Source: Marinomonas foliarum
GTDB lineage: Bacteria; Pseudomonadota; Gammaproteobacteria; Pseudomonadales; Marinomonadaceae
Assembly (NCBI RefSeq): GCF_003337275.1
Contig: NZ_QPJQ01000022.1
Location: forward strand, 1 to 64,000
Direction: 5' to 3'
Length of the DNA: 64,000 bases
Shown here: in pieces, positions 27,136 through 53,453 of the stretch
How the letters are laid out: each line of letters opens with the position of its first letter
Position numbering within the stretch: position 1 is the stretch's first letter
The notes under the pieces: model-generated
Database searches by the model: none
Seen by the model: only the letters and a program-made list of their open reading frames with translations
What the model was told of the DNA's origin: nothing
Position numbers and translations under genes: made by a program

Positions 27136-27858
27136 ATGGCTGGAGTTATGCAGGTTGATTTGGGGGATCTTGATGTACCTATAGGTACAAACGTTCAAAT
27201 AGAATTTATTTCTCCTCCTGGTCGTTATATGGTGAAAGTTCTTGGAAATATTCCGGGCAGATCATTGATACTTTCTACACCTAAAATAAATGGTAAAAAT
27301 ATTTTGGTTAGAGATGGTCAGGTAGTAAATGCTCGACTAATGCTGAGTACTCACGTTTGTGCCTTTTCTAGTAAGGTGGCAAAAAGCTATTTGGAGCCGG
27401 CAGCGCATCTCCATATTGCTTACCCAGAATATGTTGAAACATCTGAAGTGCGTCAGGCGGTTCGTGTAGAGACTCGTTTGATTTCTAATTTAGAGCCAAA
27501 CGGTTCTTCGTTGTCTATTTCAGATTCATCCTCTGCTGTGATTATTGATTTAAGTCTTGGTGGGGCTAAGCTGATCTCAAAAGAAGATTTTGGCTCTGTT
27601 AATCAAACAATGAAGCTTAACTGTAATATTAAAGTGGGCCCATATAATCACCTTTTAAAGCTAGATTGTGAAATCCGTTCTCAAGAAATTCAAATGTTAG
27701 AGCAAGTTCAAGCGAGCTTAGTAGATAATGATTTTCTAGCAAGAATGGGTGTGGAATATTTTTATGTTTACGGTGTGCGATTTGTTGATTCTGGGAAAGA
27801 TGTAGGTATTCCGCTGATGGCGTTTATTTTCGAGACTCAGCGCAATAAATCTAAATGA
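27136..27858 (+). CDS. PilZ-domain c-di-GMP-binding protein, YcgR-like
   Basis: Likely cyclic-di-GMP receptor. The N-terminal half (about 10-100) has the YcgR_2-type beta fold; the C-terminal half is a PilZ domain with the RxxxR motif in VRQAVRVETR (about residues 111-117) and the (D/N)xSxxG motif in IIDLSLGGAK (about 138-147), both required for ligand binding. 240 residues, no signal peptide. Such proteins brake flagella or act on pili and secretion; partner not evident. A diguanylate cyclase gene is at 51.8 kb. Follows pdxB by 22 bases and is closed by a strong terminator. Confidence 0.85.
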   Translation: MAGVMQVDLGDLDVPIGTNVQIEFISPPGRYMVKVLGNIPGRSLILSTPKINGKNILVRDGQVVNARLMLSTHVCAFSSKVAKSYLEPAAHLHIAYPEYVETSEVRQAVRVETRLISNLEPNGSSLSISDSSSAVIIDLSLGGAKLISKEDFGSVNQTMKLNCNIKVGPYNHLLKLDCEIRSQEIQMLEQVQASLVDNDFLARMGVEYFYVYGVRFVDSGKDVGIPLMAFIFETQRNKSK

Positions 27859-27871
27859 ATTTATATACTTT

Positions 27872-27906
27872 GAAAAAAACGCCAGCATTTTGCTGGCGTT
27901 TTTTGT
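27872..27906. terminator. terminator between the PilZ gene and htpX
   Basis: AAAAAAACGCCAGCA, loop TTT, TGCTGGCGTTTTTT. Perfect stem with A- and T-runs, usable by both convergent genes. Confidence 0.92.
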
Positions 27907-27912
27907 TAAATA

Positions 27913-28791
27913 TTAAAGTGCTTGTAGTGCTTTAATACGATCTTCAATAGGGGGGTGGCTAGAAAATAGCTGTCCCATTGTTGGTTTCTTGCCGCGGCGT
28001 ATGCCGAAGGCAAGCATGGAGTCTGGCATGCGGCTTTCTTCGTGTTCTTGCTGCAAACGAGCAAGGGCTGCAATCATAGCGCCTTTGCCTGCTAATCGTG
28101 CGCCTGCTTCGTCTGCTCTGAACTCTCTGTAACGAGAGAACCACATAACAATGATAGAGGCTAAAACGCCAAAGATAATTTCAAATACAAAAGTGGCGAT
28201 ATAGTAGCCCCAGCCCACGGAGCCTTCGTTGTCGTTTCTGCGTAGGAATTGATCTACAGCGTAAGCTGCAATTCGAGCAAAAAACATTACGAAAGTGTTA
28301 ACAACGCCCTGAATAAGAGACAGAGTAATCATGTCGCCATTGGCCACGTGACCAATCTCGTGACCAAGTACTGCTTTTATTTCATCAGGAGAGAATCTAT
28401 CTAGCATGCCACTTGATACGGCGACTAAGGCATCGTTTTTGTTCCAGCCTGTTGCGAACGCGTTTGCTTCATGGGTTGGGAATATTGCCACTTCTGGCAT
28501 TTTTATTCCTGCTTGGTGTGAAAGTGCTTTTACTGTATCAAGTAACCATGCTTCTTTGTGGTTGCTTGGTTGCTTAATAACAACAGCACCAGACCCTCGC
28601 TTTGCCATGAATTTTGACAGAAGAAGTGACACTAGACTGCCGGCAAAGCCAAACACACCGCAGAAAATAAGCAGCGAGGTGAAATCTAGGCCATTACTGG
28701 ACATGTAACCATTAACGCCTAAAAGACTCAGAACGATCCCTGCAACCACCATGACTGCTAAGTTCGTCAGTAAAAACAGAATAATGCGCAT
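27913..28791 (-). CDS. htpX: membrane protease HtpX
   Basis: Zinc metalloprotease of the inner membrane that degrades misfolded membrane proteins; in E. coli it is under heat-shock/envelope-stress control. The ATG at 28791 ([18 protein letters not shown]) is the family start. 292 residues: two N-terminal membrane segments, HEIGH zinc motif at about 140-144, two further hydrophobic segments and the downstream Glu in FRADEAGA. The AAGGAG ribosome site lies inside a perfect 15-bp hairpin ending at the start codon. An in-frame ATG at 28824 is inside the hairpin and has no ribosome site. Confidence 0.96.
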
Positions 28792-28828
28792 TACTATGCT
28801 CCTTAAGAAACTGTTAAGGAGCATAGTA
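28792..28828 (-). promoter_or_regulatory. perfect 15-bp hairpin covering the htpX ribosome binding site
   Basis: On the htpX mRNA strand TACTATGCTCCTTAA, loop CAGTTTC, TTAAGGAGCATAGTA, then ATG. The Shine-Dalgarno AAGGAG lies wholly in the 3' arm and the stem ends at the base before the start codon. The 37-base structure has no mismatch. Confidence 0.85.
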
Positions 28829-28858
28829 GGGTTTTATAGGATTATTTCAAGAGAGGAG

Positions 28859-30076
28859 TTAGCGCTTTCTTAATCGGCCTAAAAAAGCAGCGAATCTTTC
28901 CATAGCGGGAGCTAGTTCTTCAACATGTGGAAGAAATACGAACCTAACATGGTCGGGGGTTGGCCAGTTGAATCCTGTGCCCTGAACGATCAGCACCTTT
29001 TCTTCGCGTAAGAATTGCAAAACCAGGTCTATGTCATTTTTAATATCGTAGACTTTCGGGTCTAAACGAGGGAATAGATATAACGCCCCATCAGGTTTGT
29101 GGCAGTGGACCCCAGGAATTGAGTCCAATGCTTCCCATGCCACCTTGCGTTGTTCGTATAGGCGTCCGCCAGGTATGATTAGCTCATTGATGCTTTGGTA
29201 GCCTCCAAGTGCTGTCTGAACGGCGTGCTGGGCTGGAACGTTGGCGCATAAGCGCATAGAGCTGAGTATATCTAAGCCTTCTATATAGTCTTGAATGCCA
29301 CTCCTGTCACCGGTTATAGCCATCCAGCCTGAACGAAAGCCTGCGGTGCGGTACACTTTCGAAAGTCCACCAAAGGTAATGCAGGGTGCGCGCCCTTCTG
29401 TGAGAGTGGCTGTTGGAATGTGCTTGGCTTCGTCATAAAGAATTTTGTCATAAATTTCGTCGGAGAAGATGAGTAAATTGTGTTCTTCGGCAAGATTGAC
29501 TATGGATTCGAGTATGCCTTTTTCGTAGACAGCACCCGTTGGGTTATTTGGGTTAATAATAACAATCGCTTTGGTCTTGTTTGATATCTTAGAGCGAATG
29601 TCATCAACGTCTGGTTGCCATCCAGAACCTTCATCGCATAGGTAGTGTTTTACGTAGCCGCCTGAGAGCGTTGCTGCGGCTGTCCAAAGAGGGTAGTCGG
29701 GGGCAGGGATAAGTATTTCATCTCCATCATTAAGGAGGCCTTGCATAGCGAGAACAATTAGCTCACTAACGCCATTCCCCATCCATACATGATTAACATC
29801 AGCAGATTTGATGCCCATGGCTTGGTATTTTTGCATAACGGCTTTGCGGGCAGAAAAAAGACCTTTTGAATCGCAGTAGCCTTGCGATGTTGGCAAGTTA
29901 CGAATGACGTCGACTAGAATTTCATCGGGAGCTTCAAAGCCGAACGGGGCAGGGTTGCCAATATTGAGCTTTAGAATCCTTTGACCTTCTTCTTCCATTC
30001 GAACGGCTTCTTTTAAAATTGGGCCGCGAATTTCATAGCATATATTAGCGAGTTTGTTGGATTTACGAATTTGCAC
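28859..30076 (-). CDS. alaA: alanine transaminase, AlaA type
   Basis: PLP-dependent aminotransferase making alanine from pyruvate and glutamate. The start is GTG at 30076, seven bases after AAGGA; this gives 405 residues, the length of E. coli AlaA, and the N-terminus S.KL.N.CYEIRGPIL. PLP lysine in GGLSKVYRTAGFRSGW; NPNNPTGAVY and SDEIYDKILYD are the cofactor motifs; LNIGNPAPFGFEAPDEILVD is nearly E. coli-like. Stands alone between htpX and the yajG-like gene, each on minus. Confidence 0.92.
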   Translation of the reverse strand: MQIRKSNKLANICYEIRGPILKEAVRMEEEGQRILKLNIGNPAPFGFEAPDEILVDVIRNLPTSQGYCDSKGLFSARKAVMQKYQAMGIKSADVNHVWMGNGVSELIVLAMQGLLNDGDEILIPAPDYPLWTAAATLSGGYVKHYLCDEGSGWQPDVDDIRSKISNKTKAIVIINPNNPTGAVYEKGILESIVNLAEEHNLLIFSDEIYDKILYDEAKHIPTATLTEGRAPCITFGGLSKVYRTAGFRSGWMAITGDRSGIQDYIEGLDILSSMRLCANVPAQHAVQTALGGYQSINELIIPGGRLYEQRKVAWEALDSIPGVHCHKPDGALYLFPRLDPKVYDIKNDIDLVLQFLREEKVLIVQGTGFNWPTPDHVRFVFLPHVEELAPAMERFAAFLGRLRKR

Positions 30077-30200
30077 CACATTATCCTTACTAAAGCTGTG
30101 TGGGAGGTGTGTCCACTTTACACCTAACTTATAGGTGATCAAGATAGGCAAAGAAAAAATTCATTATAAAATGATGAGGGGTCGAGAGGAATGAGCTAGA

Positions 30201-30243
30201 AAAACCAGCCACCTAATTCATAAGTAGAAAAGGAGGCTGGTTA
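30201..30243 (-). terminator. terminator after the yajG-like gene
   Basis: On the minus strand AACCAGCC, a loop of about 24 bases, GGCTGGTT then TTTCT. Loop is long but the stem is perfect. Confidence 0.65.
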
Positions 30244-30252
30244 TTTTGCGGT

Positions 30253-30822
30253 TTATTTAAGTAGGGTGATAATGTTGGGGTCGCTTAATAGTCGATTCAC
30301 AGTTTGGCTGGCAAGTGCATTCATATCATCTTGTACTGCCTGCTGATATGGCATTGTGCCGTACTCTCTTACTTTCTGGGAGCCATAATTTGCTTTATAG
30401 GTCTGCCCCTTTGCTGCGAGGGTGGCCTTTAGTTCAAATTCTAGAGTGGCAATGGTTTTTAAGGTCTCAACCTCAGTAGTGTAACTCATCTTACTGATTT
30501 CGATTTGTAGATCTGCAGCTGGCATGAGGCCTTGGTCAGGAGTGAAGCCAAGTTCACGCAATCCTTTAAGTACGCTTTCTTTTACACTTAACTTAATGTC
30601 ATTCGTTGTAAATATGTCTGCTCGTTCATTAATGCCTGTTTTAATAGAGCCGATGGAATTGTTAAGTTGAGTATTGGTTGAAACGTTGATTACACGGTCG
30701 TTTGTCAGGCTTGCAGTTTGTACGTCAGCTTCTGGCGTTATGCTTATATAGTGGGTTGTGGAGCAACCAGCTAATAAAATTGTTGAAAGGGATAAGGTCA
30801 AAAAGAAGTGTTTATTCAGCAT
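30253..30822 (-). CDS. YajG-family lipoprotein
   Basis: Predicted outer-membrane lipoprotein of 189 residues. Signal peptide with lipobox LLAGC at about residues 16-20, next residue Ser, favouring outer-membrane sorting. The rest (VINVSTNTQLNNSIGSIK, LKGLRELGFTPD, LQIEISKMSY) follows the YajG pattern. Exact role unknown in the family. In enterobacteria yajG neighbours ampG; not so here. A perfect 9-bp hairpin (AAGCGACTT/AAGTCGCTT, 30849-30873) lies in its upstream region. Confidence 0.75.
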   Translation of the reverse strand: MLNKHFFLTLSLSTILLAGCSTTHYISITPEADVQTASLTNDRVINVSTNTQLNNSIGSIKTGINERADIFTTNDIKLSVKESVLKGLRELGFTPDQGLMPAADLQIEISKMSYTTEVETLKTIATLEFELKATLAAKGQTYKANYGSQKVREYGTMPYQQAVQDDMNALASQTVNRLLSDPNIITLLK

Positions 30823-30953: not shown

Positions 30954-31029
30954 GTCCCGTTCGTCTAGAGGCCTAGGACACTGCCCTTTCACGGCAGTAA
31001 CAGGGGTTCGAACCCCCTACGGGACGCCA
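30954..31029 (+). tRNA. tRNA-Glu (TTC), copy 1
   Basis: 76 bases with encoded CCA. Acceptor GTCCCGT/ACGGGAC, anticodon loop CTTTCAC giving TTC, T-arm GGGGTTCGAACCCC. First gene of a seven-tRNA array. Confidence 0.97.
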
Positions 31030-31089
31030 ATCTTTTCACAAGGTTGTCTATATAGTCTACTTGTTTTTGTTGTTTGCTGAGAAGTGTTT

Positions 31090-31164
31090 GCGGGAATAGC
31101 TCAGTGGTAGAGCACAACCTTGCCAAGGTTGGGGTCGCGAGTTCGAGCCTCGTTTCCCGCTCCA
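31090..31164 (+). tRNA. tRNA-Gly (GCC), copy 1
   Basis: 75 bases with encoded CCA. Acceptor GCGGGAA/TTCCCGC, anticodon GCC in CTTGCCAAG, T-arm GCGAGTTCGAGCCTCG region. Confidence 0.97.
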
Positions 31165-31218
31165 GCATCGACGTTAGCGATAGCGTGATGTGTTATCAGT
31201 TTATTAAAACTGAATTGT

Positions 31219-31294
31219 GTCCCGTTCGTCTAGAGGCCTAGGACACTGCCCTTTCACGGCAGTAACAGGGGTTCGAACCCCCTACGGGACGCCA
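31219..31294 (+). tRNA. tRNA-Glu (TTC), copy 2
   Basis: 76 bases, identical to copy 1 by eye. Confidence 0.97.
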
Positions 31295-31393
31295 CTATTT
31301 TACTATTGTTGAATAGTAATGTGATTGGCTAAGGCGGATCATAGATTAAATTACCCACTGCTTTATGCGAATAGAGAGTAGGGTAGTTGAAAT

Positions 31394-31468
31394 GCGGGAA
31401 TAGCTCAGTGGTAGAGCACAACCTTGCCAAGGTTGGGGTCGCGAGTTCGAGCCTCGTTTCCCGCTCCA
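31394..31468 (+). tRNA. tRNA-Gly (GCC), copy 2
   Basis: 75 bases, identical to Gly copy 1 by eye. Confidence 0.97.
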
Positions 31469-31515
31469 TTTCCTTTCGGGGGAATATAGTTATAGCACTA
31501 TAAAAGCTAGAATGC

Positions 31516-31591
31516 GTCCCGTTCGTCTAGAGGCCTAGGACACTGCCCTTTCACGGCAGTAACAGGGGTTCGAACCCCCTACGGGACGCCA
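31516..31591 (+). tRNA. tRNA-Glu (TTC), copy 3
   Basis: 76 bases, identical to copies 1 and 2. The spacer after it (CACTATTTTA) repeats that after copy 2, a trace of unit duplication. Confidence 0.97.
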
Positions 31592-31606
31592 CTATTTTAT
31601 GTATCT

Positions 31607-31681
31607 GCGGGAATAGCTCAGTGGTAGAGCACAACCTTGCCAAGGTTGGGGTCGCGAGTTCGAGCCTCGTTTCCCGCTCCA
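31607..31681 (+). tRNA. tRNA-Gly (GCC), copy 3
   Basis: 75 bases, identical to the other Gly copies; only 15 bases after Glu copy 3. Confidence 0.97.
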
Positions 31682-31710
31682 CTTTCTTTAAAGAGAAAGT
31701 TTATTTGTAT

Positions 31711-31786
31711 GTCCCATTCGTCTAGAGGCCTAGGACACCGCCCTTTCACGGCGGTAACAGGGGTTCGAACCCCCTATGGGACGCCA
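31711..31786 (+). tRNA. tRNA-Glu (TTC), copy 4, variant
   Basis: 76 bases. Differs from the other Glu copies by two compensated pairs: acceptor GTCCCAT/ATGGGAC instead of GTCCCGT/ACGGGAC, and anticodon stem CCGCC/GGCGG instead of CTGCC/GGCAG. All pairing is kept, so it should be functional. Confidence 0.96.
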
Positions 31787-53387: not shown

Positions 53388-53453
53388 TAGCGGTTTAAGG
53401 CCGCTATTTCCAATTAAACACTATTTCCGATAATAACATTTATCGGAAATAGT
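53388..53453. terminator. two hairpins downstream of the cyclase gene
   Basis: AGCGG/CCGCT (53389-53405) followed by ACTATTTCCGATAA (53420-53433) and TTATCGGAAATAGT (53440-53453), a perfect 14-bp stem with loop TAACAT. Only a weak T-run (TTTGGTTG) follows, so termination is probable rather than certain. Confidence 0.5.

Follow-up and report, generated by a model that had tools for sequence, protein, structure and literature searches.

A hairpin over the htpX ribosome binding site of Marinomonas overlaps a sigma32-like promoter and may shield the gene from upstream readthrough

Readthrough of transcription into neighbouring genes is common, and, to our knowledge, few have asked what keeps stress genes silent when it happens. 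The insertion sequences IS10 and IS50 are protected from external promoters in that readthrough RNA folds over the ribosome binding site, and RNA from the internal promoter escapes this folding. In pyrC of Escherichia coli, the position of the transcription start decides if a 5′-terminal hairpin buries the Shine-Dalgarno (SD) sequence, and the start shifts with nucleotide supply. RNA thermometers of the ROSE and fourU types hold the SD sequence in a stem before heat-shock genes. The nearest known case to the locus described below is gene e (lysozyme) of phage T4. According to the available part of the published account, longer early transcripts of gene e fold over the ribosome binding site, late-promoter transcripts without the 5′ part are well translated, and the reported effect is 100-fold (PMC3014915). 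A search of the literature that left most subscription journals outside its reach returned no report of such an arrangement at htpX and no paper on the IS10/IS50 protection or the pyrC switch; the available part of one paper on the subject describes no htpX thermometer.

The window analyzed here is the whole stretch of 64,000 nucleotides from Marinomonas foliarum (contig NZ_QPJQ01000022.1, positions 1 to 64,000). An earlier note on this DNA, made from the letters alone, had named the gene behind the hairpin as htpX, and profile matches agree (NCBIfam PRK05457, 424.8 bits versus a cut-off of 245; Pfam M48 also matched). The gene is encoded on the minus strand (ATG, 28791-28789), and its leader reads CTTGAAATAATCCTATAAAACCC-TACTATGCTCCTTAA-CAGTTTC-TTAAGGAGCATAGTA-ATG. 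On the plus strand, the perfect inverted repeat consists of the 15-bp arms TACTATGCTCCTTAA (28792-28806) and TTAAGGAGCATAGTA (28814-28828) around a 7-base loop. In the mRNA, the SD sequence AAGGAG (28799-28804) falls within the 3′ arm and the 3′ end of the stem is at −1, adjoining the ATG; the mismatch-free hairpin that the note had placed at 28792-28828 is therefore exactly where it was drawn. The features of the locus are collected in Table 1.

Table 1. Coordinates of the features at the htpX locus, in positions of the window
Feature	Coordinates	Strand	Basis
htpX, M48 membrane metalloprotease, 292 aa plus stop	27913..28791	-	NCBIfam PRK05457, Pfam M48
Hairpin 3′ arm: SD AAGGAG (28799-28804) and SD-to-ATG spacer	28792..28806	-	repeat, pairing counts
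Loop, 7 nt	28807..28813	-	sequence
Hairpin 5′ arm; also presumed −10 (TACTAT) and discriminator (GCTCC)	28814..28828	-	repeat, alignment, pairing
Predicted transcription start	28814..28817	-	dnaKp1 geometry (+1 = 28816); invariant A at 28815
−10 region CCCTACTAT, overlapping the 5′ arm	28823..28831	-	sequence, motif placement
−35 element CTTGAA, sigma32-like	28846..28851	-	TTGA 26 nt before ATGC in 41/47 leaders; promoter scan
Class I/II aminotransferase, co-directional, start codon uncertain; presumed source of readthrough	28859..30151	-	Pfam Aminotran_1_2 above cut-off

Two perfect repeats with 15-bp arms (loop of 3 to 20 nt) occur in the window, the second of them terminator-like. None of 20 Markov-chain resamplings of 64 kb gave a perfect repeat longer than 12 bp, so the repeat before htpX is not a chance expectation. 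Its modelled energy is −20.2 kcal/mol at 37°C. The cost of opening the htpX SD sequence, 20.5 kcal/mol, is the highest of 187 leaders (median, 3.9; 95th percentile, 8.1; next highest, 11.7), which are the SD-bearing leaders of open reading frames of at least 150 codons chosen mechanically from 464 kb (the window plus 400 kb of the same genome). The ATG that had been pointed out in the 5′ arm is present and, in the window, in frame with the start codon, as it is in just 22 of the 42 leaders having an ATG there. As an alternative start codon it was set aside, because of this inconstant frame and because it lies upstream of the predicted transcription start. Elsewhere, the window holds a further perfect inverted repeat of 14 bp (53420-53453) and seven consecutive tRNA genes in two score groups (30954-31783).

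To place the leader among its relatives, we searched 48 Marinomonas genomes, 47 of which contain htpX (G042 being the sole genome without a match). A same-strand aminotransferase gene, which we take to be alaA-like, ends 67 nt before htpX in the window; it stays below the cut-off of each of the 25 NCBIfam families shown for it. In 37 of the 47 species, the distance, measured from the last aligned residue and hence including the stop codon, is 69 to 90 nt. Neither this co-directional neighbor nor the promoter motif had been recognized in the earlier note. With no distance preset (10 to 45 nt allowed), TTGA precedes ATGC by 26 nt in 41 of the 47 leaders and in 36 of the 37 with the adjacent aminotransferase, and TTGA-ATGC pairs at other distances number only six in all (15, 16, and 34 nt once each, 20 nt three times). 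Leaders without the 26-nt pair are L108 (TTGT instead), L115 (ATAC instead), L124, L125, L126, and L130. A looser motif placement fits 44 of the 47 leaders, with the 26 nt there holding by construction, being required. In the placed leaders, ATGC lies 20 to 24 nt before GGAG, with an outlier of 37 nt in L130, which has no hairpin; GGAG lies 10 to 15 nt before the ATG in all 47. The 5′ arm thus appears bound to the position of the −35 motif, whereas the length between the two arms is free to vary, which fits RNA pairing.

The sigma32 −10 consensus is CCCCATnT. While the −35 element and the spacing agree with the sigma32 type in 41 of the 47 leaders, the −10 region CCCTACTAT deviates from this consensus; because of that deviation, we regard a sigma32-type htpX promoter as likely and not as shown. 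A promoter scan matched TTGAAA-16-TACTAT, of weak sigma70 type (3 sites in the stretch versus 4.7 in shuffles), and a start a few bases past this TACTAT would give the same conclusion. In the available part of the report on the E. coli sigma32 open complex, the dnaKp1 scaffold spans −39 to +15, with CTTGAA at −35 to −30 (PMC10216364). Projected on htpX, this layout makes 28816 the +1 position, within the TTAA end of the arm. The A next to it, at 28815 (column 37 of alignment A2), is invariant in all 41 rows, and its pairing partner is mismatched in 8 of the 37 distinct rows. Within this genome, a pattern for promoters that combine sigma32 and anti-SD features had four matches, htpX included, versus one in a reversed control, and a strict sigma32 pattern had five versus one. 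Beyond the genus, a sigma32-like motif stands upstream of htpX in 48 of 67 loci versus 0.44 expected from mononucleotide shuffles under the same ad hoc pattern. In Pseudomonas aeruginosa, the accessible part of one study gives htpX as raised 3.1-fold when RpoH is raised, and lists the gene among those not found heat-induced by an earlier RNA-seq study (PMC9866376).

With transcription predicted to begin within the 5′ arm or at its end, mRNA from the htpX promoter would be made without the anti-SD GCTCC, and only RNA coming from the upstream aminotransferase gene would carry the hairpin. The burial of the ribosome binding site that had been proposed would accordingly hold for any RNA that has both arms, and its stem pairs covary in several clades; the promoter's own transcript is predicted to be free of the hairpin. 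A start inside the 5′ arm had been named as what would speak against the burial, and by prediction this is the case for the promoter's own transcript, while RNA from the upstream gene would keep the hairpin. We modelled shortened transcripts starting at −4, 0, and +2 around the A for 33 of the 47 leaders, the motif placement missing 14. The SD-opening cost of these transcripts is 1.2 to 8.9 kcal/mol versus 5.3 to 22.0 for the full leaders of the same 33 loci. In 32 of the 33, each of the shortened starts lowers the cost relative to the full leader; the exception is L103, which has a weak hairpin. The SD sequence still is partly paired in the shortened transcripts (modelled unpaired probability at 25°C of 0.01 to 0.47, and of 0.06 to 0.28 in the window). 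For the window, opening costs 5.9 to 7.2 kcal/mol in these transcripts, more than the genome median (3.9) and less than the 95th percentile (8.1).

We consider it probable that the hairpin is a readthrough shield built into the promoter, in the manner of T4 gene e but on a chromosomal stress gene. The 5′ arm would serve twice, supplying a sigma32-type htpX promoter with its −10 region and discriminator and also acting as the anti-SD sequence. A polymerase arriving from the aminotransferase gene would copy both arms, and the RNA would fold so that the htpX carried on it could not be translated. A polymerase starting at the htpX promoter would begin within the 5′ arm or at its end and make a leader of about 23 to 30 nt without the anti-SD sequence, which would be translated. 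The output of HtpX protein would then depend on the gene's own stress promoter. As in gene e, the SD sequence is predicted to lie in a stable helix of upstream-initiated RNA, in all 37 leaders with the adjacent gene; the promoter motif and its geometry fit an overlap with the 5′ strand, the start itself being a prediction. While the sequence supports this mode of action well, its working is so far predicted.

The cost of opening the SD sequence follows the gene upstream. It is 12.4 to 22.0 kcal/mol in all 37 leaders with the adjacent aminotransferase gene and 2.3 to 10.1 kcal/mol in the 10 without it. The comparison of relatives that had been called for thus bears out strong burial for the first group and finds it weak or absent in the second. 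Among the 10, L115, L117, and L125 have a divergent msrB-like gene upstream, and L103, L104, L127, and L129 have a lipoprotein-like gene ending 163 to 269 nt before htpX (both named by reading translations of the longer loci L140 to L149). L130 has another gene 203 nt upstream, and L124 and L126 have the aminotransferase gene 231 to 237 nt away, which was counted as not adjacent. L104 and L117 keep 8-bp stems despite the lack of adjacency. The association was noticed post hoc, after the data had been seen, and its Mann-Whitney P value of 1.6e−6 ignores kinship and is not to be relied on. Each of the two traits changes at least four times on the gene tree of htpX. Restricting the count to supported branches leaves three independent contrasts, which agree in direction (sign test, P = 0.25); over all branches there are four.

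The GCTCC motif, discriminator and anti-SD sequence at once, is exact in 34 of the 37 leaders with the adjacent gene, and the other three are G-U compatible. It is absent from all seven placed leaders without the adjacent aminotransferase, and from this absence the promoter itself seems to have no need of GCTCC. Across the seven core pairs 28 to 34 in the 37 leaders, 254 of the 259 cells are Watson-Crick, 4 are G-U, and 1 is broken. Pair 27-59 is intact in 36 of the 37 and occurs as U-A, C-G, and G-C; its 5′ base belongs to the −10 region, and RNA started at the htpX promoter would not contain it. Cells changed on both sides number 29, versus a shuffle mean of 8.1, and none of 500 shuffles reached that number. 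Counting the pairs that show double changes, or the types of pair, gives no excess over the shuffles (375 and 153 of 500 as high, respectively), because the changes stem from few clades. These counts come from alignment A2, which holds 41 of the 47 leaders and excludes the hairpin-less L124, L125, L126, L127, L129, and L130, and so are biased toward structure. Within this scope, stem pairs covary in some clades.

Could the hairpin instead belong to the main htpX mRNA and be opened by heat or by a factor, as the earlier note had guessed? The gene is a heat-shock gene, its SD sequence is sequestered, compensatory changes occur, and in the window species a TATAAA stretch (28833-28838) might give rise to RNA that includes most of the arm. 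However, that stretch is not retained in the aligned relatives, the promoter geometry sets the start inside the arm, and only tRNA reached the cut-off in an Rfam scan of the window. In the model, moreover, the SD sequence of the full leader has an unpaired probability of 0.000 from 4 to 60°C, so that thermal melting is hard to credit as the trigger, and we hold an RNA thermometer or switch to be distinctly unlikely. It is likewise unlikely, if a little less so, that the hairpin is a 3′-end structure that stabilizes or defines the end of the aminotransferase mRNA, with SD burial incidental. Strong hairpins do go with an adjacent upstream gene, and the gap of 69 to 90 nt leaves little space for another terminator. 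Against this, the hairpin lacks a T-run behind it on the minus strand, and a simple scan of 27700-30300 found zero minus-strand terminators. That scan called the palindrome on the plus strand only, with the tail GGTTTTATAG, which rules against an intrinsic terminator for RNA of the htpX strand. The core stem also includes the letters of the SD sequence in all 37 leaders, which a pure 3′-end hairpin would not need, although a single origin could explain this too.

Two further readings concern the repeat as such. A dimeric regulator might bind the near-perfect palindrome, which lies over a promoter-like site, as an operator across the −10 region; this suggestion, too, had been made before. It is disfavored by the arm-to-arm spacing, which varies from 20 to 24 nt (ATGC to GGAG) among hairpin-bearing leaders while the 5′ arm keeps its distance to the −35 element, by arm letters that covary between clades with G-U changes, and by the restriction to one locus in the genome, and we find it quite improbable. 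The discriminator might also merely happen to complement the SD sequence and be inherited without selection on pairing. A single origin is likely and the independent contrasts are few, as this would have it, but 258 of the 259 core cells pair (4 as G-U) over 37 species, and leaders with a different neighbor pair less strongly; such a by-product seems very improbable.

Around the htpX promoter, hairpin potential between −100 and −35 exists in 29 of the 37 leaders with the adjacent gene, mostly at the coding end of the aminotransferase gene, and we did not accept it as a terminator. Several loci without adjacency have strong hairpins behind the upstream gene, with a clear T-tail in L140 only. 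There, a terminator-like hairpin with a T-tail follows a lipoprotein-like gene (L140:877-1145), no aminotransferase gene is adjacent, and the stem before htpX includes G-U pairs and a mismatch. In L147, from a species without the SD hairpin, the stretch between the aminotransferase gene and htpX contains, just before the promoter, a 17-bp inverted repeat with one mismatch at most (L147:981-1029), which is possibly another way of stopping readthrough. The htpX leader of L124 is longer, and a different 13-bp stem, also with at most one mismatch, separates its promoter-like motif from the SD sequence (L124:232-278).

The predicted htpX shield resembles the leader hairpins of T4 gene e, soc, 49, and I-TevI, in which the SD sequence and/or start codon is held in a helix; it differs in that the gene is a stress gene on the chromosome and its promoter is sigma32-like, whereas the T4 cases have a phage late promoter, and in being a prediction from sequence. 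It shares the folding of readthrough RNA with IS10 and IS50, which protect a transposase within an insertion sequence, while htpX stands in an ordinary chromosomal gene order. Like pyrC, it would bury the SD sequence depending on the start, with two promoters in place of a nucleotide-driven shift. With ROSE and fourU elements it has the SD stem in common, but the modelled hairpin is far too stable for them, and mRNA from the htpX promoter is predicted not to carry it. A promoter-embedded shield would be a compact answer to readthrough, known from phage T4 and from insertion sequences. Its case also advises caution: the promoter should be located before an SD hairpin of a heat-shock gene is named a thermometer.

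More tentatively, and as a possibility we would not yet favor, promoter and anti-SD sequence may be fused, the same bases acting as a transcription signal in DNA and as a translational silencer in RNA. Evolution across the genus may then tune the shield to gene order, so that it is kept with a close, unterminated neighbor and decays where the neighbor is gone, diverges, or is set apart. Marinomonas offers natural comparisons for this, with and without the neighbor gene. Outside the genus, the aminotransferase gene lies 46 to 211 nt from htpX on the same strand in 24 of the 67 loci, and among the 65 of these 67 leaders with a recognized SD sequence, none has an opening cost above 8.8 kcal/mol. 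The lack of strong burial despite adjacency in 24 loci indicates that the shield is not a general need but one lineage's solution. A covariance model, which was built from Marinomonas and may miss unlike sequences, found the module once in this genome besides the same palindrome on the other strand (150 of 1,530 candidates scored). Under stricter filters, the model was run on 194 genomes representing 96 genera of the order and gave eight matches, all of them in Marinomonas. By eye, Halomonas-type htpX leaders (L057, L062, L070, and L072) carry GC-rich hairpins between a promoter-like motif and the SD sequence.
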